Source of the DNA: Eucommia ulmoides
Taxonomy: Eukaryota > Streptophyta > Magnoliopsida > Garryales > Eucommiaceae
NCBI GenBank assembly: GCA_016647705.1
Contig: CM028326.1
Location: 3,844,001-3,908,000, forward strand
Reading direction: 5' to 3'
DNA: 64,000 bases
Part shown: positions 26 through 34,959 of the stretch, in pieces
Layout of the letters: every line of letters begins with the position of its first letter
Position numbering within the stretch: position 1 is the stretch's first letter
Program-made: the position numbers and the translations under genes
The notes under the pieces: generated by a model
The model's input: only the letters and a program-made list of their open reading frames with translations
What the model was told of the DNA's origin: nothing
Databases searched by the model: none

Positions 26-994
26 TTATGTTATATGTACTTATATAATATTTTTATATCTAACAAATATTTTATACACAAGTTAGAAACATGTAACTGT
101 GCGAGAGTGCAATGCGTGTGTTGAGCTTTCCGCTTTTCTTTAATGCGTTGGACTAAAACACAAGTTGCAATTGTGTATGGGATTGTTTTAATATTAAGGA
201 TAAACTAAGAGACTTGTCACATAAACACATTTTTTTTTGGGGGGTATTGATTCAAGTATAGTTGATGATTCTGCCCAAGGTGTTCTCGTTGAAATTAGTA
301 GCTGTTATGAGTTAAACGAAGTAAATTAGCTGTTGAAATCTCTTTTCGCCAACTTGTACAGCAAAAAAAAATAAAATTGAATTATATTGCACAGTAGTAG
401 AAATGAACTGTTTTAAGGAATGCCTTTTAGAGTAAACTGGTAGAGGATGCATTTCATACAGGAAAAAAAAACAGAAAAAGAAAAAGAATTGTCCACTCAA
501 GTATTAAAAATTCCAATGCATGGCGTAAAGGGTCGTAGCTCCTGAATATTCAGAAAATAAACAGAAAATGGGTAAAAATACGATTGAGAATTCAATGGTT
601 TCAATAAACTCGCTACAATAGTTCGTCTTGGACCAAATCTCGAACTGTTGTCAATAGTTTGTACAGCCATAATTATTCATAGAGATCTATCGACTTTGTA
701 TAGCATTTTGTTGGTGAACAATGAAAATAGACGGTGAGTGCCTGATTGAATGGATTGGGTCATGTAGGAACAAGGTTTGAGTCTGTTGGTCTGTTAGGAT
801 GTCTGAGCTGCATGCATCATTGCACTCACTTGACACTTATTGTAATGATAAACGCCCACTGAATTGAATTGGGTCCATGAATCTAACAAATAGTGAAATT
901 TTTTTAGCTCTCTCAAGACCATAGGGTTGAATATAGAATTGGGAAATTTATGCTTCATCTTTGAATTTCTACCAGGAAATTGTCGGCTCTTTGG
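26..994. other. Non-coding stretch upstream of the NUMOD3 gene
   Basis: AT-rich sequence with no ORF I can support. A plausible 3' splice site (CTACCAG, ending at 975) opens an exon in the frame of the NUMOD3 gene, so 976-994 may be coding and an N-terminal exon may lie further upstream, possibly outside the window. An ATG followed by a good donor (721-734) was considered, but its phase does not match the exon at 976. Confidence 0.4.
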
Positions 995-3626
995 ATGCCT
1001 AACACCCTTTGGTCATCACATTTCGGTAATGTGGTGGAATGTGCTCAGTTTCAACCAAGTACAACATATTCAATTTACAGTGGATTTCCTCCAAAGACCA
1101 TTCTTGTCTTGAATGGTTTTCGTGGTTCATTCACAAGTCTAGACCCATGTGAAGCATCCTCTACCATTGTGAATACAGGAGAGACATCTGATGCTGTGGA
1201 ATCGTGTGAAAGAAAAATGGAAGGCAATCCTACAGTTGAGAATTCGACCAAAGAGATTCAGTTAGGTATGCATTTCGACTTTTCCCATAAGCTCAGTTAT
1301 GAGGAGTATATAGAATACGAAAGGAAAAGAAAGATTGGATTAGGTAACAAGGGAAAAGTGCCATGGAACAAAGGAAGGAAACACAGTGCAGGTAACTCTC
1401 TGCATATTTTTACTGTTTATACTGAGATAATTGCCTGCATAAATCACCCAAGTTTAATTGACCATATCTGCAGAGACTCGTGAAAAGATTCAACAGAGAA
1501 CTAAAGAAGCCATGAAAGACCCCAAGGTGAAGTCATGTAAGAATCAACAGTATTTGTATGTATACAAGCCTTTTCTGTCTCAATTTGTCTCGCGAGAGAA
1601 GAATAATATAAAGAATATACTATCTACAGCTCCACTATTTTTTTGTAGGTTGACAAAGACAACAAGTATCTTCAGCTTGTTTTCCCTTTGACTAAGATTT
1701 AACTGCAATTATCATTTTTTGGTTTCCTTCACTCTTCAACAATTGTTACTACGTGCTGCCCTGAGTGGTTGTTACTTCCTTGTTGGTGTACTAAATCATC
1801 TAACTCTTCCTCTACGAATTTTACAGATTAGAAAGAAGCTGGCTGTATGCCCACGTGCTCATAGGTATTTCTTGTTCCTATTATTCATTGTGACCGTGTT
1901 ATTTTCATGTTGTCTTTATTTGGTTTCAATGGAAGTGAGAGACTGTTTCTCATGCATAATATTAGAAGACTGCCAATTGTTGAGGCCTTGTGGTACAAGG
2001 TACGTAGAGCATCGAGTCTTAAAATTGTGAGTCTCGTTTTGAAACATGGAGACTACATATTTTTGGAAGCTCATATAAGTTTTAATTTATGCTAAAGTAG
2101 TGATTGGCAAAGGAGGTAGAATTTACCAACTCCTAAGGGGCATTTATTGAAATCGGAAAAACGACATCTTAGATTGCAGCTTCATATAAGGTAGTTGATA
2201 GAATGGATTTTAGAGAGGATGAGGCACGATGGAAGAATGTTGTTTGGAATTCTTCTTCTTTTGTCAAATTGTCATCTTTTTTGCCCTCTTTTGTTGTCTG
2301 ACTGGATGCGACAGTCTTCCATATATAATCAGCGTATAGACCAACAATCATGTAAGCAATTTTTGTAGTGAAAGCTTGCTACCATTAGAATCCTCACTCA
2401 AGTGGTCAAACAAGACTTTATGGTTTAATCTGCATAAATAAAAAGTGTTACCCTTTCAATCATTCAATTGCAAACTGCCTTCCCTTGAAATTTGGTTACA
2501 TATGCATGACTCTCTCTCTCTCTCTCTCTCAGCAAACCGACCAAGAAGAAGATAGGTTCATCTCTCAAACAGATATGGCATGAGCGTTTGAAATGGAAAC
2601 GGACAAGGGAGGAATTCTTGCTATCATGGGCCAAAAGTATTGCTGCAGCCGCCAAGGAAGGTGGGATCGACCAACAAGAACTGGAATGGGATAGCTATGA
2701 AAAGATGAAAACTGAGCTTGCCCTCCAACAGATTCAGTTGAGCGAAAACCAGGCAAAGGCAAAGGAAATGGCGAAAAAATTAGCACAAGAACGAGCAGAG
2801 AGAGCAGCACAAGCAAAAGCAGAAAAAATGGCAAGGCTTGCTCAGAGGAGAGAAGAGCGCGAACAGAAGGAAAAGGCAGCAATGGAACTAAAGAGAAAAA
2901 GACGCAAAAAAAGAGGGGAACATATAGAAGAAGATCCAGCTTTTTTTCAAGAGTTAAGCCTCAAGGATAGATTAAAAGAGGTATTACTCATCCTTGTGAA
3001 ACTAATATATACATATATAATTTGTTGAGGGTTAATTCTTGATCCAAATTTTACATAAAATAAACAAAATTATCCTTTATTTTAAATTTTATTTATTTTT
3101 TTCTTTATTGAAAGAAAAAATAGAAGTAAAGAAAGAAAAAAAAGTGAGTGATAGAGTGAGCATGTCAATTTCTCTGTTTTTTGTTATTAAACATTAAATT
3201 TAAAATATAAAAAAAAAATAAGTTATTTATGCTTTTTAACAGAGTATTAATTTTTTCCTTTAATTAAAAAGTAGACGGGGATTAAAGAAAACAAGATCAA
3301 AGTAAAAGGGGGTAAAAAACAAGTAACCCATTTATATGTATTGCTTTGAAACCAGTTTTATAATCTAGTTTTTTTGCCCCTTTTGACAGATTCAGAGAAA
3401 GAAACCTGTGAGTAATCAAATAACCTCTCAAGATCGTCAAAACTGGGAGGCTCTTGATATGGGGTTCATGAAGAGTGAACTATTACAGAAGGAGGTATCC
3501 CTTGCTGATCAGATCCGTGCTGCCAAGAGCAAAAGATCCGAATTCTCGGGTAAGGATGTTGCGTCTTCTTCTTCAACAAGTATTCTTGAGTTGAAGCATA
3601 AGATGAATCAAAAACAAGGCCAGTAG
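995..3626 (+). CDS. NUMOD3-motif protein with basic coiled-coil C-terminus
   Basis: Five exons reconstructed by hand: 995-1391, 1474-1526, 1827-1864, 2533-2980 and 3390-3626, all GT..AG and in phase, giving about 390 aa. The joined exons 1-3 give the repeat GNKGKVPWNKGRKHSAETRE (about residues 117-136), then EKIQQRTKEAM and RKKLAVCPRAH. This is the NUMOD3 nuclease-associated DNA-binding motif found in a plant-specific family. There is no GIY-YIG or HNH nuclease domain, so nuclease activity is not implied. About residues 205-300 form a Lys/Glu/Ala-rich helix (KMARLAQRREEREQKEK), probably coiled coil, and the C-terminus is Ser-rich. I know Arabidopsis At1g53250 as this type; its function is not established. 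The start is uncertain: ATG 995 is the first in-frame Met after the acceptor at 975, but related proteins usually have extra N-terminal sequence. The second 3' splice site follows a (TC)10 tract. The last two exons are duplicated downstream. Confidence 0.8.
2511..2530 (+). repeat. (TC)10 microsatellite serving as polypyrimidine tract
   Basis: Ten TC units end directly at the AG (2531-2532) that precedes the fourth exon of the NUMOD3 gene. The simple repeat therefore forms the polypyrimidine tract of that 3' splice site. Confidence 0.85.
3026..3335. mobile_element. AT-rich insertion in last intron of the NUMOD3 gene
   Basis: The last intron is 409 bp (2981-3389). The same intron in the downstream copy (4511-4619) is only 109 bp, and the two match at both ends (CATTGCTTTGAAACCAG in the second copy). 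The extra block of about 310 bp here is AT-rich and is probably an inserted or lost mobile sequence. I could not define terminal repeats. Confidence 0.4.
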
Positions 3627-3769
3627 TAGACACTGCCTTTGAATTTCTTTTCAGTTTCTATCGTCGATATTTGTAGTTTGTGACAATAGTAGGTTAGTGC
3701 AAGCAGCCTGCCTAGACTCAAATCTCCATTATGTGGCATGATTTTCATTTCACTGGTTCATCAAACATA

Positions 3770-4227
3770 ATGCTAATTTGTTTCTGTTATGTTCCCAACA
3801 AATTTTTTTTTTGAAATTTATGTGAACGAAATAGAAACACACAAATTTATATAAATTTTACTTCTTTGTTTTTGTTCTGCATTTTTCATTTCCAGGAACA
3901 GAAACAAAAAACTGAAACAGAAACTTAAATAAATGTCATCTAATCAAACGCCACCTTAGGACCCGTTTGGTTTTCTAAATTATTATTATTATCTTATTTG
4001 TGATGAATTGATTTGTATATATATCCATTTTCATGTGATTTAATCTAATTTACATAATCTTTGTCTTGAACATACAATTGTTTTAATTTAGGTAATCTGT
4101 AGTTAAATTTATCTCCAATTACATGAGAAAATAACATATGAAGAGCTAAAATAAGTAGTTATAGAATTTAAATGTTTTTAAATCCTACAACCAAATGCTG
4201 AACTATAGCAATCCATAAATTGACTAA
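3770..4227. mobile_element. Two abutting MITE remnants between the NUMOD3 copies
   Basis: A Tourist-type right end (CAAACGCCACC, ending 3955) is followed by TTA (3956-3958), and a second element begins immediately with GGACCCGTTTGG. That second element resembles the one in DJ1B intron 7 (15457-15772) and the one ending at 6432. It runs to about 4227 without its right terminal repeat, because the partial NUMOD3 duplicate starts there. Confidence 0.5.
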
Positions 4228-4859
4228 TTAAGCCATCAAGGAAGGTGGGGTCAACCAACAAGAACTAGAATGGGATAGGTATGAAAAGATGAACAGTGAG
4301 GTCGCCCGCCAACAGCTTCAGTGGGTTGAAAATGAGGGAAAGGCGAAAAAAAAAGCACAAGCAAACGCAGAGAAAATGGCAAGGCTTGCTCAAAAGACAG
4401 AAGAACAAGAAAAAAAGAAAAAGGAGGCAACAGAACTAAAGAGAAAAGGACGCAAAAAAGAAGATTTAGGCTTTTCTCAAGAGCTAAGCCTTAAGGATAG
4501 ATTAAGAAAGGTATTACTATAATCCCTGTGAAACTAATGCATATATATATATATATATGGTTTGTTTGCATTGCTTTGAAACCAGTTTTATCATCTAGTG
4601 TTTTCACCACTGGTGACAGATTCGCAGAAAGAAACCCGTTAGCAATCCAATAACCTGTCAAGATCGCCGAAATTGGGAGGCTCTTGATATGGGGATCATG
4701 AAGAGTAAACTGTCGCAGGAGGAAGTATCCCTTGCTGATCAAATTCAGGCTGCCAAGATCAAAAGATCGGAATTATCAGGTAAGGATGTTTCATCTTCTT
4801 CTTCTTCAACAAATATTGTTGAACTGCAGCATAAGATGAATCAAGAACCAGGCCAGTAG
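4228..4859 (+). pseudogene. Partial tandem duplicate of the last two NUMOD3-gene exons
   Basis: Two exon-like blocks, 4228-4510 and 4620-4859, match exons 4 and 5 of the upstream gene. They keep the intron phase, the donor AAG|GTATTACT, the acceptor GACAG|ATTCGCAG and an open frame ending QEPGQ-stop. The similarity continues into the 3' flank, with TTTGAATTTCTTTT after both stop codons. The copy starts inside exon 4 and lacks the NUMOD3 exons, so alone it is a fragment. Both exons remain open and the substitutions look mild (for example the extra Ser codon), so it could still serve as an alternative 3' end of the upstream gene. I see no stop or frameshift in it. Compared with copy 1 it lacks a stretch of the EMAKKLAQERAERA region. 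Confidence 0.75.
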
Positions 4860-5079
4860 TATACACAGCCTTTGAATTTCTTTTCTGTTTCCATCTTTGG
4901 TCGTTTTAGTTTGCCGCAATATAGTAAGAAGTGCAAGCAGCCTGCCTAGTCTCAAACTCCATTATGTAGCTCGATTTTCATTTCAATGGTTCATTGTCGT
5001 AATGATACGGGCAGGAAATTTACTTACGACGCGTTCTTAATAAACGTGTTTCTGTTTTGTTCTCACGAAAATAAATGGT

Positions 5080-5440
5080 TAAATTGCACTTTGAACTCTT
5101 GATATTTGAGTGCAATCTCCATGTGCCCCATGAAATTTTGATTCTGAATTTATCTTTTGAGGTTTGATTTTTGCCGGTTCAATTAGCACAATTTGAGCAT
5201 CTGATTGACGGATTAACAAAAAATGCATCACACGTGTATCATAATTGAGGAAGAAAAATGGGGAAAAAGAACAACACTCGATGCAAGTGTTGCTACTCAG
5301 GCTATTAAGACGGTCAAAATGTCTCAATTACATTAGGCAAAATTCAAAATTTAGAGTACATTTGTGAAAATTAAAACATGAGGGAGCACATTGATATAGT
5401 ACTCAAACTTCAAGGGTGGAAATTGTGATTTACCCCAAAT
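5080..5440. mobile_element. MITE of the 'TTAAATTGCACTTTGA' type
   Basis: The left end TTAAATTGCACTTTGAACTC and the right end (reverse complement TTGGGGTAAATCACAATTTC) form an imperfect inverted pair that interrupts sequence otherwise shared between the two NUMOD3 3' flanks. Similar short elements occur near 8985-9195, 10610-10810 and 38820-38905. Confidence 0.45.
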
Positions 5441-19108: not shown

Positions 19109-19378
19109 ATCGCGGGCAATTCACGAAAGCTTTAGCCGGGGTGGTTGCGTTCGAGTGTACATTTCCTGTAGGTCGGCGACTTTTGGGGCCACGCTATACG
19201 GATCTTAGCCCTACCAATTGGGTCGCCCGGCCAATTTCGATCCTTCTTAGGGAGTTATATGTTTCTATCAATGCTTACCTTCTTTTTCAGGTCCCCAAAA
19301 TGGGGCCATGATTTTTTAACGGTATCCAAATAAAAAAAATAAAATCATTTAAATGGTGCTCTACAAAAATGATATTTT
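19109..19378. promoter_or_regulatory. Upstream region of the DJ1B gene
   Basis: About 270 bp between the DJ1B start and the transposon block. It is GC-richer than its surroundings near the start codon (GGGGTGGTTGCGTTCGAG). It should contain the promoter, but I see no clear TATA box. Confidence 0.35.
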
Positions 19379-20250
19379 TCACTCTTGGAATCTTCGAAGA
19401 ATTTTGTCTTTTTTTTACCCCCAAACCTTTACTCTATTAAAAAAATATATATATTATTGATGTCAGAAATTGGATCAACCAGCAGTATGGTCTGACCACT
19501 CTTTACTTGGAAGATTGTAACTGATCTAGAGAGGGCTTTCGTCCTTGCTGGGGTCTTTATTTCAGGCTGGACAGGCGTTTCCGGCCTGAATTTCGACCTG
19601 TCACCTGCACACAGGACGGGCCGAGGTGTTCTTGGCGTGTGTAAGACCCGACCTTTGTATGTGCATATTTTTAATTATATTTTAGAAATAATAATAATAT
19701 TAGAGTATAGAGGGTCATTTAAATATTATAATTATAATTTTTATGGGTCATTTTGGTATTTAAAATTTTGATTTTAGAAATTTGTGGGTTTAATAGGTTA
19801 ATTTAATTTAGATTTTAAAATTTTGGGGGTACAATTGCTATTTAAAAAAAATGTTAACATTTACCTTTGGACTTAAATATAATTTTTAAAGATTCTTGGA
19901 GGAATTAGTGTAACTTATCATAGGAGACTAAACATTGATAAGAAAGTTTAAAAAATTGGTCTTTAAGAATTTTGGGTTGAAATAAAATATTATTGATCTT
20001 ATGGGGTTAATAAGTGTATTTAATCAATAAGAGATACGACAAACTCGTTGAGGCGTTGAAGTTTTTTAATGGAGTAAAAGTTTGGGGGAAAAAATTTATG
20101 GGACCTTTGAAAGAATTTAATGCATATATTATATATACACACATATGTGTCTATATACATATATATCTATACACACACTTGTTCAAGGTTCGAGCATTCT
20201 CCATTTTATTTTATTTTTAAAATCCATCTTGATGAATCATCTTCTTCATT
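19379..20250 (+). repeat. Tandem ~1.0 kb unit, copy 1 (left part)
   Basis: This segment and 25558-26219 are direct repeats: both contain TTGGATCAACCAGCAGTATG, then CGAGGTGTTCT, GTAAGACCCGACCTTTG, and end AATCAATAAG. After two transposon insertions copy 1 continues at 23426-23525 and 25495-25557. It then joins copy 2 directly. The unit is non-coding and polar and may be an LTR or satellite-like sequence. I could not place it in a named family. Confidence 0.75.
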
Positions 20251-23200
20251 GAGTTGTTTACCCAAAAAATGCTATTTAAAAACTTAAATTCTGAAAACGG
20301 TGGATTTAAAACTTATATACCTAACGCAGGTTAGTCGGTATTCGGATCACCGATTAGGCCATTGCCTGTGTTTGGAATGGCGTAATTTAAAACGTTTTTG
20401 GTGTTGCGTATACCGATTATATGGTTTCGATTTTCAATTTTCAAATTTTTTTTCCCATTTTTTCAAAAAAATCGGTGTTCAGTTCACCGGCCATCATTGC
20501 CGACGAACTGAATGCCGGCTGCTTTTTTTTTTAAAGTAGCCGGTGTTCAGTTCATCGGCTATAGCCCATAAATACACCCAACCCCTCCAACTACCCACAA
20601 TTACACTTGCATTCAAACACCCACCCACACCTCTTGAAATAATTGGAACTACCCAATGGAATTGCATTCAAACACCCACCCACACCTCTTAGGTTAATCT
20701 CTCTTTTACACTTACTCATTTTTACTGCCCACAAAACCCACGAAACCGTATTTTTACTGCCCACAAAACCCACGAAACCCACGGTTGATCTCTCCTCCTC
20801 CTCCATCTCGATATTTCCTTTTGTTAAAGCTTGATTTATCTCACAAAAAATGTATGTTTTTTAATTTTTACCGTCAAATAATTTTTGTGTTTTTTTTTTT
20901 TTTTTTATTTATTTATTATTTTGGTGACTTTGTAATTTTATTGATTTTGTGTTTATACTTTTAATTTCAAAAAAATAATGTAGTTCGTAATCAGGTAAGA
21001 CCATGCAATTTTTTTCGGTAACCTTGCAATTTTTAGTTATGTAATATATGATTTGTAATTTCCTCTCCATTATGTTTGTTTTTTTAATTTCAGCAACCTT
21101 GCAATTTTTTTCCACTTTTTTTTTTTTTTTTATCAAATACAACTGTAGCTCCGTGAATACAATTATAGCGTGAAATCCACGAAAATGGTCTTTTTGGTGA
21201 GTCATGGCCTACCTATTTGCTTCGGTTTTGATTTTTTGACCAAATTCTTTTATAACTTTATGAAATGATGTAGAAGGATAAAAGTATCGATAATTATTAT
21301 TTAAATTATATTTATTGATAATTATTTAGAGTTTAAATGGATTAGTTTAAAAATTATTATTTAAATTATATTTATTTAGTATTTAATTATTGTTGTAGAA
21401 ATGTCAACATTTAATTGTATTATTCATTGATAATTATTTAGAGTTTAAATGGATTAGTTTGAAAATTAGTGTTTAAATTATATTTATTCAATATGTATAA
21501 ATTACTCAATATCATTGGTAATAATTCTAAACTTTGAATTTATTGTTTTGTCTTCCTTTGTGAAATACTAACTATTTGAAATGAAGAACGTTACACTGTA
21601 TTTGTACTGAGGTGGTAGGATATTAGAAAGAACTGAGTTTGGGGTGTCGTATAATATGTCTGCAGTAAAATCGATGGATGTCTATCAGGGGATTACATTA
21701 AACAATTTGATTGAGATGTTACGACCTAATGTCTTTGAGGCTGGAGTTGATGGAAATTAAAAGTTAAAGTGTAGGTTGCCTATTGCTCTTATTGGACCGG
21801 GAAATTTTCAATATATGTTATTTTCAATCAGCGACGACACAGCATTAAATCACGTGCTTCAATTACCTCTTAAGATGCCATCACTTCTTGGTGTTGAGGT
21901 GTATGTTGAGGTAGTGCAAGCATTTGATCACGGTCCAAATTTTTTTTCCCATCCTGGTTATTTTACTCAATTTTTGAGCCAGAGTGTTAATCCTTATAGT
22001 ACCACATTATTCAAACCCTTTTTTGGTTATAATATTCCTATGCCAGATCCCTAAGTTGTTAAATCCAATTACACTGTTCGACCCTCCTACATTCCTTAAC
22101 CATATAATTCACCTACTATGATTGACCGTGATGCATGCATCAGTGTTGCCACTCTACAATGTAATTATAGTGGTAGGTATGGTAAGGATGTGGTGGCAGT
22201 TGATAGTCTTCACAATGTAGAACAATCAGTATCAGGATGTTGCATTGGAGGAAGACGAGAATGTTGAGAATGACAACGAATATTTAGATGATAGGCCGAG
22301 TCGGGAAAGGAGTCAGCAATTAGAGTTGCACAGGGTTATTCCCATAATAGAGCAACCATCGTTGCCAATCGTCAGACTACGCCGACCTATTGAGCACCGG
22401 TTGCCAATCGTCAGTGAGTGACACAATTGTCACTCCCATAATAGAGCAACCATCGTCTAGTTCTGTACTGATTCCAGCTATGAGTCATGTCGTACATACA
22501 ACTAGATCGGGGAGACAAGTGTCACTAATACCGTGGTCCACGAATAACGATATTCCGATTCCGATGGAGGAACAACTGTATGCTTCGACCATGGATTTGG
22601 GACACCTGACACGGGTCAAGCATACGGGTGTAGATGAGATGGAGGAACTCCCACTTCCTCTACGCCGACAACGAAGGAATATTAGATGTAGGGGTTGCGG
22701 CACATAGTACTCTGTTTGTAGGTCTTCGTATTAATTTGTATTTCCATATTGTCAGTAAAAGTATGTAGGCGAAGACTGTTACTTTTATGTTATTTCGTAA
22801 TGTTTGTAGCATTTGAATGAAAGTAGTATTTTCTACTTTGTCTTTGAGACATGTATATATATAAACATCGTTAAACAAGTATTCCTTACCACTAAAAAAT
22901 ATATATAAGAAAATTGATGGATGGACGAAAATTAATTACTTAACACAATTAAATGTAAAATATATTTTTTCTAAATATATAATAAAAAAATATTAATTTT
23001 AAAAATCAACTTTTTAATTAAAATTTTTAAAAATACTTAATTTTTAAATAATTAAAATACAGATTTTATTAATTCAAATTACTCGATTTTTTTTATGGGG
23101 TGGGGCTGTAGCCGGCGTTCGAATCGCCGGCTAGATGGCCGGTGAACACATTACCGGGAAAGAAAAAAAATTAAAAGGTGGAAAAAGAAACTGGCGTTCG

Positions 23201-23425
23201 GTTCGCCGGCAATGATAGCCGGTGAACTGAACACCGGCTTTTTTTGGGGAAAAAAGTAAAAAAAAAATTAAAAAAAACAAAATCGTATAACCGGTGTACG
23301 CAACATTGAAGTTGTTTTTGAATAGGTGATCCAAACACCAACTAACTTGCATTGGGTATATAAGTTTTAAATCCACTGTTTTCAGAATTTAAGATTTTAA
23401 ATAGCATTTTTTGGGTAAACAACTC
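20251..23425 (+). mobile_element. MULE1: Mutator-like element with ~330-bp TIRs
   Basis: The left TIR (20251 to about 20580, starting GAGTTGTTTACCCAAAAAAT) is the inverted match of the right TIR (about 23100-23425, ending GGGTAAACAACTC). Both contain copies of a hairpin word of the form GCCGGTG-spacer-CACCGGC. The second copy of the surrounding unit, at 30525-30550, lacks the insertion. I could not find a clear target duplication. The inside carries remnants of a MULE protein. Long TIRs with a MULE-like protein support the class. Confidence 0.8.
21620..22707 (+). pseudogene. Decayed MULE transposase remnant
   Basis: Frames 21630-21760 and 21776-22054 read like the N-terminal part of a MULE protein (YNMSAVKSMDVYQGITLN, and KCRLPIALIGPGN after an in-frame stop). 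22390-22707 carries a C-terminus ending LPLPLRRQRRNI and CRGCGT-stop. The middle, where the DDE catalytic core and zinc knuckle should be, is missing or unreadable. The same C-terminal sequence occurs in MULE2, so this is one family. It is not functional as it stands. Confidence 0.6.
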
Positions 23426-23525
23426 CAGCAGGTGAATTCTTTAATTTTTGTATTATTTTTTTTCATTATATATATATATATATGGGTTCGAAAAATATAA
23501 TGGGTCTATATTGATACATAGATAT
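23426..23525 (+). repeat. Tandem unit copy 1, middle part
   Basis: The sequence between the two MULE insertions, GCAGGTGAATTCTTTAATTT to GATACATAGATAT, matches 30545-30650 in copy 2, where it is continuous. It ends with the first copy of the 9-bp duplication flanking MULE2 (CATAGATAT, 23517-23525). Confidence 0.75.
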
Positions 23526-24192
23526 GGAGTTCTTAACGAATTAAATATATATTAAAAACTTAATTTCTGAAAATAGTACGGTCGAAACTTATTTACGGAA
23601 TGAGAGTAAAACGCAAAACCGATTTGCGTTTTTCGAAAAACGCATAATAAAAAAAAAATGAAAAGTAAAAACGCAAAACCGATTTGTGTTTTTAAAGAAA
23701 CGCAAATCAGTTTTGCGTTTTTCAAAACCCCCCCCCCAAAAAAAAAAAAAAGTTTGAAAAACGCAGAAAGCTTCTGCGTTTTTCGAAAACAAAACAAAAA
23801 AAAAATCTTTGAAAAACGCAGAAAGCTTCTGTGTTTTTCAAAAAAAAAAAGAAGAGAGTAACGGTTAAGCAGCAGTGTGGTTTTTTTTTTTTTCTTCAGC
23901 AGAGAGTCGGTGCAATCCATGCAAATTTGTTTTTCTGTTTTGAAAGAATTTTTGCTTTTTTTTTTTTTTTTTCAAGAGCGTTTTGTTTTTTTTCGTCATT
24001 TTCCCACCGTTTTCCTCATTCATATTTGGCTTAGAAAAACCATTTTGTGATTAGTGTGAAATGATTAAAAAAAAAACGAAAATAATATATGCATTTTTTA
24101 AAAAAAAATTACACTAATTGAAATTAAAATAAAATTACATGTGAATATATAATATATTTTTACAAATTATAATACATTTCGTCATTGAGTTT

Positions 24193-24376
24193 CTATGTAC
24201 CACACCCCCTACGTCTGATGTTTCTCCGTTGTCGCCGTAAAGGAAGTGGAAGTTCTTCGGTGTCCTCTGTCTGGAGATGATCAACTTGAGTAATGTGTTT
24301 CAAGTCCATAGTAGATGGATATGTTGGTTCCTCCACGATGGGCAACAAATATTCATCATTTCGCTCCCATGGGACC
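24193..24376 (-). pseudogene. MULE gene 3' end, left arm copy of MULE2
   Basis: The minus-strand frame reads VPWERNDEYLLPIVEEP, then TQVDHLQTEDTEELPLPLRR and ends RRRGCGT-stop. It is the inverted copy of the right-arm sequence and homologous to the C-terminus in MULE1. Confidence 0.65.
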
Positions 24377-24812
24377 GGGACACCAGATGCCGAGTCCGCC
24401 GTTGGATATGCGAAATCCGCCGTTGGATGACGACGCCAGTGCCGGACCATCTACTTACGGGATGGATAATTTCTTTTCAGATTATGGTACCGAATTGGGC
24501 GTCAGTTCCGGATGGTCAGTGGGTAACACATTTGTCACCCCGATGATGGATGTTCCATCATCGAGCTCAGTATCTGTTCTTAGTGTGACACATGGTGTAC
24601 CCAGAGGAATTCAAAGACGTATGTCACTGGTCCCATGGGAGCGAAATGATGAATATTTGTTGCCCATCGTGGAGGAACCAACATATCCATCTACTATGGA
24701 CTTGTGACACATTACTCAAGTTGATCATCTTCAGACAGAGGACACCGAAGAACTTCCACTTCCTTTACGGTGGCAACGGAGAAATATCAGACGTAGGGGG
24801 TGTGGTACATAG
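24377..24812 (+). pseudogene. MULE gene 3' end, spacer plus right arm of MULE2
   Basis: An open frame through the spacer (GMDNFFSDYGTELGVSSGW) continues into VPWERNDEYLLPIVEEP, hits an in-frame TGA after STMDL, then reads on to RRRGCGT-stop at 24812. The left arm has AAG where this copy has the TGA, so the stop arose after the inversion. No catalytic domain is present. Confidence 0.6.
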
Positions 24813-25557
24813 AAACTCAATGACGACATGTATTATAATTTGTAAAAATATATTATATATTCACATGTAATTTTATTTTAATTTCAATTAGTGTAATTTT
24901 TTTTTAAAAAAACGCATATATTATTTTCGTTTTTTTTGGAATCATTTCACACTAATCACAAAATGGTTCTTCTACGCCAAATATGAATGAGGAAAACGGT
25001 GGGAAAATGGCGAAAAAAAAACAAAACGCTCTTGAAAAAAAAAAAAAAAAAAACAAGCTCTTGAAAAAAAAAAAAAAGAAGCAAAAATGCTTTCAAAACA
25101 GAAAAACAAAATTGCATGGATTGCACTGACTCTCTGCTGAAGAAAAAAAAAAACCACACTGCTACTTAACCGTTACTCTCTTCTTTTTTTTTTTTTTTGA
25201 AAAACGCAAAAGCTTTATGCGTTTTTCAAACTCTTTTTTTTTTTTTTTAGGGGAGGGGGGGGGTTTGAAAAACGCAATACTGATTTGCGTTTCTTTAAAA
25301 ACGCAAATCGGTTTTGCGTTTTTACTTTTCATTTTTTTTATTTCTTTTGAAAAACGCATTTTGAAAATGCGTTTTTCGAAAAACGCAAATCGATTTTGCG
25401 TTTTACTCTCATTCTGTAAATAAGTTTCGACCGTACTGTTTTCAGAAATTAGGTTTTTAATATATATTTAATTCGTTAACAACTCCATAGATATGATGAA
25501 TTTGTGAAGAATTTTAATTAAAGTAAAAATTATAAATTTGATTAGAATAATATTTTT

Positions 25558-26219
25558 TACTCTTGTGACCTTTGAAGGAATTTGTCTTTTTTTTACCCCC
25601 AAACCTTTACTCCATTAAAAAAATATATATATTGTTGGTGTCGGAAATTGGATCAACCAGCAGTATGGTTTGACCACTCTTTGCTTGGAGGATTGTAACT
25701 GATCTGGAGAGGGCTTTCGTCCCTGCTGGGGTCTTTATTTCGGGCTGGAGAAGCGTTGTCTGGTTTGAGCTTCAACCTATCACCTGCACACAAAATGGAC
25801 CGAGGTGTTCTCGGCGTGTGTAAGACCCGACCTTTGTATGTACATATTTTTAATTATATTTTAGAAATAATAATAATAATGGAGTATAGAGGGTCATTTA
25901 AATATTATAATTATAATTTTTATGGGTCATTTTGGTATTTCAAATTTTGATTTTAGAAATTTGTGGGGTTAATAGGTTAATTTAATTTAGATTTTAAAAT
26001 TTTGGGGGTACAATTGTTATTTAAAAAAAATGTTAACTTTTACCTTTGAACTTAAATGAAATTTTTAAAGATTCTTGGAAGAATTAGTGTAACTTATCAT
26101 AGGATACTAAACATCGATAAGAAAGTTCTAAAAATTGATCTTTAAGAATTGTGGGTTGAAATAAAATATTATTGATCTTATGGGGGTGATAAGTGTATTT
26201 AATCAATAAGAAATAAGAC
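25558..26219 (+). repeat. Tandem ~1.0 kb unit, copy 2 (left part)
   Basis: A direct repeat of 19379-20045. The first copy continues straight through the position where this one is broken by MULE3 (AAGAGATACGACAAACTCG at about 20030 against GATAAGACAAACTTG at 30369). Copy 2 resumes at 30369. Confidence 0.75.
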
Positions 26220-30368: not shown

Positions 30369-30715
30369 GATAAGACAAACTTGTTGAGACAATGAAGTGA
30401 TCTGAGCATTTAATGCATATATTATATACACGCACATATGTGTGTATATACATATTTATCTATACACACACTTGTTCAAGGTTCGAGCATTCTTCGTTTT
30501 ATTTTAAAAAAAAAATCCCTCTTGATGAATCATCTTCTTCATCCGGCAGGTGAATTCTTTAATTTTTATATATATTTTTTTTCATTATATATATATATAT
30601 ATATATGGGTTCGAAAAATATAATGGATCTATATTGATACATAGATATGATGAATTTGTGAAGAATTTTAATTAAAGTAAAAATTATAAATTTGTTGAGA
30701 ATAATATTTTTGGTA
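30369..30715 (+). repeat. Tandem unit copy 2 (right part)
   Basis: This continues copy 2 after MULE3. It is uninterrupted where copy 1 has MULE1 (near 30540) and MULE2 (near 30645), so it shows the pre-insertion sequence at both sites. It ends near GAATAATATTTTT. Confidence 0.75.
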
Positions 30716-33566: not shown

Positions 33567-34067
33567 ATTGAGGGGATAATTCTCTTCTAAGCCATTCAAA
33601 TAGAAGGCGAGAAAATTCCTCCACGATTTGACAACAACATTAAATTTAACAAAAACATAAAATAAAAACACACACACCCATACACATACATTCACACACA
33701 TCGAGGGAAGTATTCTCCCTTCTAAACTTAAACCACTCCAATGGAAGGTCAGAAGTTTTCCACCTCGTATTGTTAGCACATTATATTTAATATAAATTAA
33801 ATAAAACACACGTACACACACACACACATCGAGGGGAGTAATTCCATTCTAAACTTAAACCGCTCCAATGGAAGGTCAGAAGTTTTCCACCTCGTATTGT
33901 TAGCACATTATATTTAATACAAATTAAATAAAACACACGCACACACACACACACACACACCTCGAGGGGAGTACTTCCATTCTAAACTTAAACCGCTCCA
34001 ATGGAAGGTCAGAAATTTTCCACCTCGTATTGTTAGCACATTATATTTAATACGAATTAAATAAAAC

Positions 34068-34100
<33 letters not shown>

Positions 34101-34461
34101 TCGAGGGGAGTACTTCCATTCTAAACTTAAACCGCTCCAATGGAAGGTCAGAAGTTTTTCACCTCGTATTGTTAGCACATTATATTTAATACAAATTAAA
34201 TAAAACACACGCACACACACACACACATCGAGGGGAGTAATTCAATTCTAAACTTAAACCGCTCCAATGGAAGGTTGGGAATTTTTCACCTCGTATTGTT
34301 AGCACATTATATTTAATACAAATTAAATAAAACACACGCACACACACACACACACATCGAGGGGAGTACTTCCATTCTAAACTTAAACCGCTCCAATGGA
34401 AGGTCAGAAGTTTTCCACCTCGTATTGTTTAACACATTATATTTAATACAAATTAAATAAA

Positions 34462-34496
<35 letters not shown>

Positions 34497-34565
34497 TCGA
34501 GGGGAGTAATTCCATTCTAAACTTAAACCGCTCCAATGGAAGGTTGAGAATTTTCCACCTCGTTT
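33567..34565 (+). repeat. Tandem array, ~130-bp unit, about 8 copies
   Basis: Units begin near 33567, 33698, 33827, 33961, 34099, 34227, 34357 and 34497 with TCGAGGGGAGTA, continue CTAAACTTAAACCGCTCCAA, then CACCTCGTATTG, and end in a (CA)n tract of differing length. The first two copies are the most diverged. Apparent ORFs across the CA tracts are not credible genes. Confidence 0.9.
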
Positions 34566-34959
34566 TATTTACTAAAAAAAAAATATATAAATAAAAAAAA
34601 TAAAAAAAATAATAATAAAAATAAAAATAAATAAATAATAAATAAAAAAAGGATTAGTATAATAACAACTTATTTAAAAAAAAAAAGTATTTACCACCTT
34701 CTTGGAGATTTCTTTTCTTCTTCGAAATTACAATAAAATGAAAATAATATTATTTACTTCAAAATTTCTCTTCAGATTTCCTCTCCCTTCAAATCCTCAA
34801 AAAAAATCCCTCCTCCAAAATCCCTCACAAAAATCCCTACCAAAATCCTCTCAAAAATCCCCATAAAAATCCTCCCAAAAATCCTCTTCACAAAATAAAA
34901 ATGAGCCTTCTATTTATAGACTTCAAAAAGGGCAAAATGGGAATTACATAAAAACGCGG

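Follow-up and report, generated by a model that had tools for sequence, protein, structure and literature searches.

The window analyzed here is a stretch of 64,000 nucleotides of the Eucommia ulmoides genome (C2:3844001-3908000; genome size 946.67 Mb in 391 contigs). It contains a fold-back element at positions 23527 to 25485, with the terminal bases GAGTT and AACTC. The right arm (24629 to 25485, plus strand) is a MULE 3' end in its original order, i.e., coding sequence ending at about 24812, 3' flank, subterminal palindromes, and TIR. The spacer (24377 to 24628, plus strand) is sense coding sequence that is continuous with the right arm and matches the long copies of the family. The left arm (23527 to 24376, minus strand) carries a second TIR, subterminal palindromes, 3' flank, and C-terminal coding end. 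An open frame starting at 24378 crosses the spacer into the right arm, whose coding part has one in-frame TGA that is absent from the left arm. Spacer and right arm thus form one continuous unit, which marks the left arm as the additional, inverted 3' end.

The inverted repeats span most of the element and end in TIRs of the MULE family, as in fold-back MULEs. Pairwise alignment of the two arms gives 760 matches, 37 mismatches (4.6% of 797), and 114 gap columns, which fall mostly in A/T runs and in the palindromic repeats. The arm alignment and the reading frame bear out a sequence-only reading of this DNA, which had described inverted arms of ~850 bp with the 3' coding end and terminal repeat of a MULE; the spacer of 252 bp given there was likewise recovered. 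Just inside the TIRs, at 23600 to 23850 and 25180 to 25405, short palindromes of the AAAACGCA..TGCGTTTT type are arranged in arrays and are possible binding sites. In many long copies, this stretch has matches at both ends.

The element is flanked by two copies of CATAGATATG on the plus strand, at 23517 to 23526 and 25486 to 25495, which are identical in 10 of 10 bp. MULE target duplications typically measure 8 to 11 bp. The sequence-only reading had proposed a perfect duplication of 9 bp; this was one base short and has been dropped in favor of the symmetric 10-bp reading, which sets the left boundary of the element at 23527 and the right one at 25485. A length of 10 bp also fits the size range of 9 to 11 bp used for MULEs in the available part of PMC3310237. 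The corresponding empty site is found within the window, in a paralogous repeat at 30405 to 30711 (plus strand) that contains neither the fold-back nor the adjoining element MULE1 and carries CATAGATATG once. This paralog runs uninterrupted across both insertion sites; the joined flanks differ from it by 22 mismatches in 305 positions, with 5 gap columns. The target duplication and the empty paralog therefore show that this is an insertion and not a palindrome that arose by chance. Chimeric reads can yield long inverted repeats, so that a false palindrome created during assembly would be another source of such a structure. However, the perfect duplication, the empty paralog, the 37 substitutions between the arms, and the presence of the spacer only once all argue against such an artifact, which is extremely improbable.

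MULE1 is a related shorter MULE that adjoins the fold-back at 20251 to 23425 (plus strand), with 70 to 82% identity in stretches of 66 to 143 bp. Two of its open stretches gave no Pfam match, and no target duplication was found around it (20241 to 20250 versus 23426 to 23435), though the empty paralog continues across the MULE1 site. Both MULE insertions are flanked by a 674-bp direct repeat (19368 to 20040 and 25546 to 26219; 92% identical), whose two copies are perhaps the ends of a host element. The window also contains a tandem repeat region at 33588 to 34571, with self-matches of 75 to 89% identity.

The relatives of the window element were collected by a genome search with the left arm, which gave 152 matches (40 of 904 first-look candidates were scored). 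In four later BLAST comparisons, matches under 100, 150, 250, and 120 bp, respectively, were dropped before listing. The first 20 stretches (L001 and onward) were taken around high-ranking matches, except that L017 lies around a lower-ranked one. Bounds are given for 16 of the 20; L009 is itself a fold-back, and L010, L011, and L017 have no assigned 5' end. Fifteen of the bounded relatives are 6.6 to 7.2 kb long and one is 2.7 kb, with a perfect 10-bp target duplication in 11 of the 16. A Pfam scan of ten open stretches, with L006, L019, and MULE1 among their sources, shows DBD_Tnp_Mut, MULE, and PMD domains in both L006 and L019 and a SWIM domain in L006; the last open stretch of each of these two copies had no Pfam match. 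The domains follow one another on one strand, the transposase first and then PMD. Long relatives with a MULE transposase thus exist in the same genome, and the window element, which keeps only the coding tail beyond the PMD part and has lost both transposase and PMD, is, as judged from these matches, a nonautonomous derivative of this ~7-kb PMD-carrying MULE family.

Alignment of the junction with 16 relatives shows how the two orientations meet. Where the parents read CCGGCGACAC or similar, the left arm, in antisense, closes with CCGG; on the sense side, the junction starts with CCGGGACACC. The tetranucleotide at 24375 to 24378, where antisense arm and sense spacer join, fits a template switch at a 4-bp microhomology. 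A search of the whole genome (947 Mb) for a 28-base junction pattern, with up to 3 mismatches, found a single occurrence and thus detected no second copy of the window fold-back. Because the junction occurs once, the window element is only a candidate for mobility as a fold-back; movement of that kind is shown for another lineage, described below. Many matches to the query stop near its base 858, which had suggested a family of fold-backs sharing this junction; that idea was rejected, because most of the bounded relatives are long elements, and the common stop is an effect of the match at the junction.

The window element is probably a mobile fold-back derivative of the PMD-carrying family that was made by faulty repair. 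A break in an element would have been followed by repair synthesis that copied a 3' end in inverted orientation, with the wrong TIR, in the same or a sister copy, serving as the template. The wrong end could serve in this way because the two TIRs resemble each other. The copied end would then have been rejoined at the CCGG microhomology and would have taken the place of the 5' end and the transposase. Having two TIRs, the product could be moved in trans by the transposase of the long relatives; the window copy either would have jumped as a fold-back or would have been rearranged in place.

The divergence of the arms bears on this origin. In the multiple alignment, they differ at 6.7% of 796 sites. 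L005 differs by 5.8% from each arm and L001 by 6.4 to 6.5%, so that both are nearer to either arm than one arm is to the other. In the best tree, the two arms are sisters, with weak support (55/23), and the window element groups with the older copy L005, with support of 99/99. The fold-back may be about as old as its split from L005 and L001, or another copy may be the source of the left arm. A compound of two family members, in which the 3' ends of separate copies were joined tail to tail and no end was copied, excludes the copied-end origin and would account for arms that are less similar to each other than to L005 or L001 and whose sister grouping reaches only 55/23. However, the best tree still keeps the arms together, and in other family fold-backs the two arms resemble each other closely (92.9% in L026, for example, gaps counted), which makes such a compound rather unlikely.

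Fold-backs of this kind are recurrent in the family. Fifteen long copies carry a 46-base motif at a distance of 487 to 667 bp from their 3' end, with up to 3 mismatches in 14 of the 15. When up to 3 mismatches are allowed, the genome contains 192 sites of this motif, of which 100 are listed; a variant motif has 74 sites at up to 1 mismatch, all of them listed. Combined, they make 160 distinct listed sites, and the pair counts derived from these are lower bounds. Among these sites, at least 26 adjacent pairs lie within 5 kb of each other, versus 0.13 expected in either order, and in all 26 the orientation is plus then minus, the order of a fold-back. All 17 pairs that were read (the window element, L009, and L021 to L035) are inverted repeats. 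When 11 of these were mapped on a full-length copy, they fell into 10 breakpoint types, L021 and L025 having a common center. The different breakpoints suggest separate origins, whereas L026, L034, and L035 might be derived from one another. Seventeen fold-backs, among them L040 (described below) but not L035, were checked for a perfect 10-bp duplication, which flanks 11 of them and is absent from the other 6.

Some larger fold-backs, with arms of ~1 to 2 kb, are close relatives of the young subfamily of long copies. These are L026 (positions 626 to 5405), L034 (472 to 3265), and L035. The center of L026 includes ~0.9 kb without a match to the full-length copy; the left end of L035 and the 3' outer end of L037 were not located. 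At the other extreme, fold-backs with arms shorter than ~500 to 650 bp would escape the motif survey, with the 3' and the 5' motifs alike.

At least 16 of the pairs among the listed 3' sites, with a motif spacing of 527 to 537 bp, represent a single lineage. Its sites include C1:36087502, C2:184475, C3:24437271, C12:16644325, and 12 more. Seven members were read (L027 to L033); apart from 66 to 247 gap columns, they differ by 0.1 to 3.0% in substitutions (97.0 to 99.9% alike). Their centers have an identical position and few substitutions, and five of the seven are flanked by perfect 10-bp duplications that differ from one another. Near-identity, a common center, and different duplications show that this lineage transposes as a unit, and its sequences suggest that it moved recently. 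The four long copies of the young subfamily are 97.3 to 98.8% identical in the main block. Three of them keep an open stop-to-stop frame of 720 to 722 aa where L006 has its transposase frame, an assignment made by position and not by a domain scan. In the tree, L029 of the amplified lineage and L026 group with this young subfamily.

The 5' end of the family has yielded a fold-back as well. A motif located ~633 bp from the 5' end, found with up to 3 mismatches in 15 of 15 copies, has 112 sites, of which 100 are listed. Among the listed sites, a single plus-then-minus pair lies within 5 kb (L040), together with one pair in the reverse order, minus then plus (C8:3187537 and C8:3188950, 1.4 kb apart), unlike the fold-backs. 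L040 (positions 279 to 4591; C14:699778-704090) is a 5'-end fold-back with arms of ~2.1 kb and a center of ~70 bp. The arms extend to about base 2187 of the 7.2-kb element, which takes them into the first part of the transposase frame. Nine of its 10 flanking bases are duplicated if its end is taken at 4591, which is 20 bases beyond the palindrome. The 10 breakpoint types at the 3' end, against one fold-back at the 5' end, amount to an apparent 3' bias among the sites listed, which come from unequal motif sets. The proposed faulty-repair origin of the window element is supported by its anatomy, target duplication, empty site, single junction, and microhomology, by the recurrence of such fold-backs, and by the unit transposition of another lineage.

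The sequence-only reading had gone further and compared the element with a natural silencing hairpin, as a possible independent equivalent of Mu killer of maize. In that case, a spanning transcript would form a hairpin RNA that would be diced and would silence the long family members in trans. This claim concerns function and can be compatible with an origin by faulty repair. The plus strand of the element is predicted to fold almost completely, with 775 arm-to-arm paired positions and an MFE of -1316.7 kcal/mol. After low-complexity words were left out, each of the 20 family loci (one of them a fold-back) contains 118 to 277 of 673 left-arm 21-mers as exact matches, and each of the four young copies contains 153 to 171 of 672; counted per arm, the words common to each young copy number 138 to 171 of 672 to 675. 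The longest exact run shared with the window element measures 49 to 142 bp in 20 of 20 family loci, an identity sufficient for small RNAs. Long perfect matches are shared also with the four young, near-identical long copies. The predicted match to related MULEs holds for these loci, but not for MULE1, which had been named as the example: it has no 20-mer in common with the window element, would therefore be poorly matched by any small RNAs that the fold-back produced, and was rejected as a silencing target. In the available parts of the sources, MULE TIRs can hold promoters (PMC3310237), and long MULE TIRs are linked with siRNAs (PMC6446971).

Several observations speak against a silencing role. 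The window arms represent the end opposite to that in Mu killer, beyond the PMD part and outside the transposase core. They have no C-to-T excess (fractions of 0.30 and 0.27 of the arm substitutions, within the 0.22 to 0.73 of 22 other family rows, from which the consensus was also built), so that methylation hypermutation was rejected as a trace of silencing. No ORF of at least 150 aa was found within 4.4 kb, a threshold that small exons would escape. The family also includes a fold-back lineage that has multiplied. Finally, a later study of Mu killer reported short antisense transcripts and contested the model of a read-through hairpin, according to the part of PMC3440606 available. A Mu killer-like activity of the window element is, accordingly, a doubtful proposition. 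A mobile by-product of faulty repair is favored, because fold-backs are frequent in the family and one lineage has been amplified.

A broader possibility, which also appears improbable, is that the family habitually turns its ends, mostly the 3' ones, into mobile, hairpin-encoding fold-backs and so repeatedly makes its own brake. If so, each fold-back would consume transposase and at the same time be a source of double-stranded RNA directed against the family, and L040 would be an independent structural equivalent of Mu killer, the well-known inverted derivative that silences its parent transposon. Should fold-backs arise frequently in one family, one genome would offer replicates for testing whether hairpins silence their family and could show whether arm length, end, and age matter. 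The family also represents a measurable case of fold-back origin followed by spread.

Among known systems, Mu killer is a derivative of maize MuDR that, as described in the available part of PMC3440606, contains TIRA and the mudrA end, has both of its ends from the mudrA end, and acts as a dominant silencer. The window element resembles it in being an internally deleted MULE with both ends from one parental end and a part of a gene in inverted duplication. The proposed equivalence holds to the extent that the window element is an inverted MULE derivative able to fold; in topology it does not, since the arms come from the 3' end beyond the PMD part and not from a TIRA/mudrA end. An inverted TIRA-type end with a part of the transposase gene is lacking in the window element but is found in L040. 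The latter matches the Mu killer topology better; to judge from its sequence, it has the Mu killer arrangement and is the closest structural match to Mu killer seen in this genome.

FARE of Arabidopsis and MuTAnT of Medicago belong to the MULE superfamily and form fold-backs through their long ends, which are inverted or palindromic, and Tm1 of nematodes is a MULE-related fold-back (available parts of PMC4486113 and PMC3169594). In FARE and MuTAnT, the fold-back arises from long, modular, or palindromic TIRs, whereas the arms of the window element hold 3' coding sequence, and its long parents and ten breakpoint types are found in the same genome. PMD occurs in many plant MULE groups, which, like the long relatives described here, combine it with a MULE transposase in one element (PMC6446971, as far as available); the window fold-back, in contrast, has lost both and keeps the tail after the PMD part. 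Fold-back MULEs, PMD in MULEs, and a single-end inverted derivative, Mu killer, are thus already known. In the literature at hand (PMC3440606, PMC10760457, PMC4486113, PMC3169594, PMC3310237, and PMC6446971 and otherwise mostly the openings of abstracts), recurrent single-end MULE fold-backs were not recognized. As far as this literature shows, the novelty lies in how often one family has produced single-end fold-backs with coding arms, in their apparent 3' bias, and in an amplified fold-back lineage beside young long copies.
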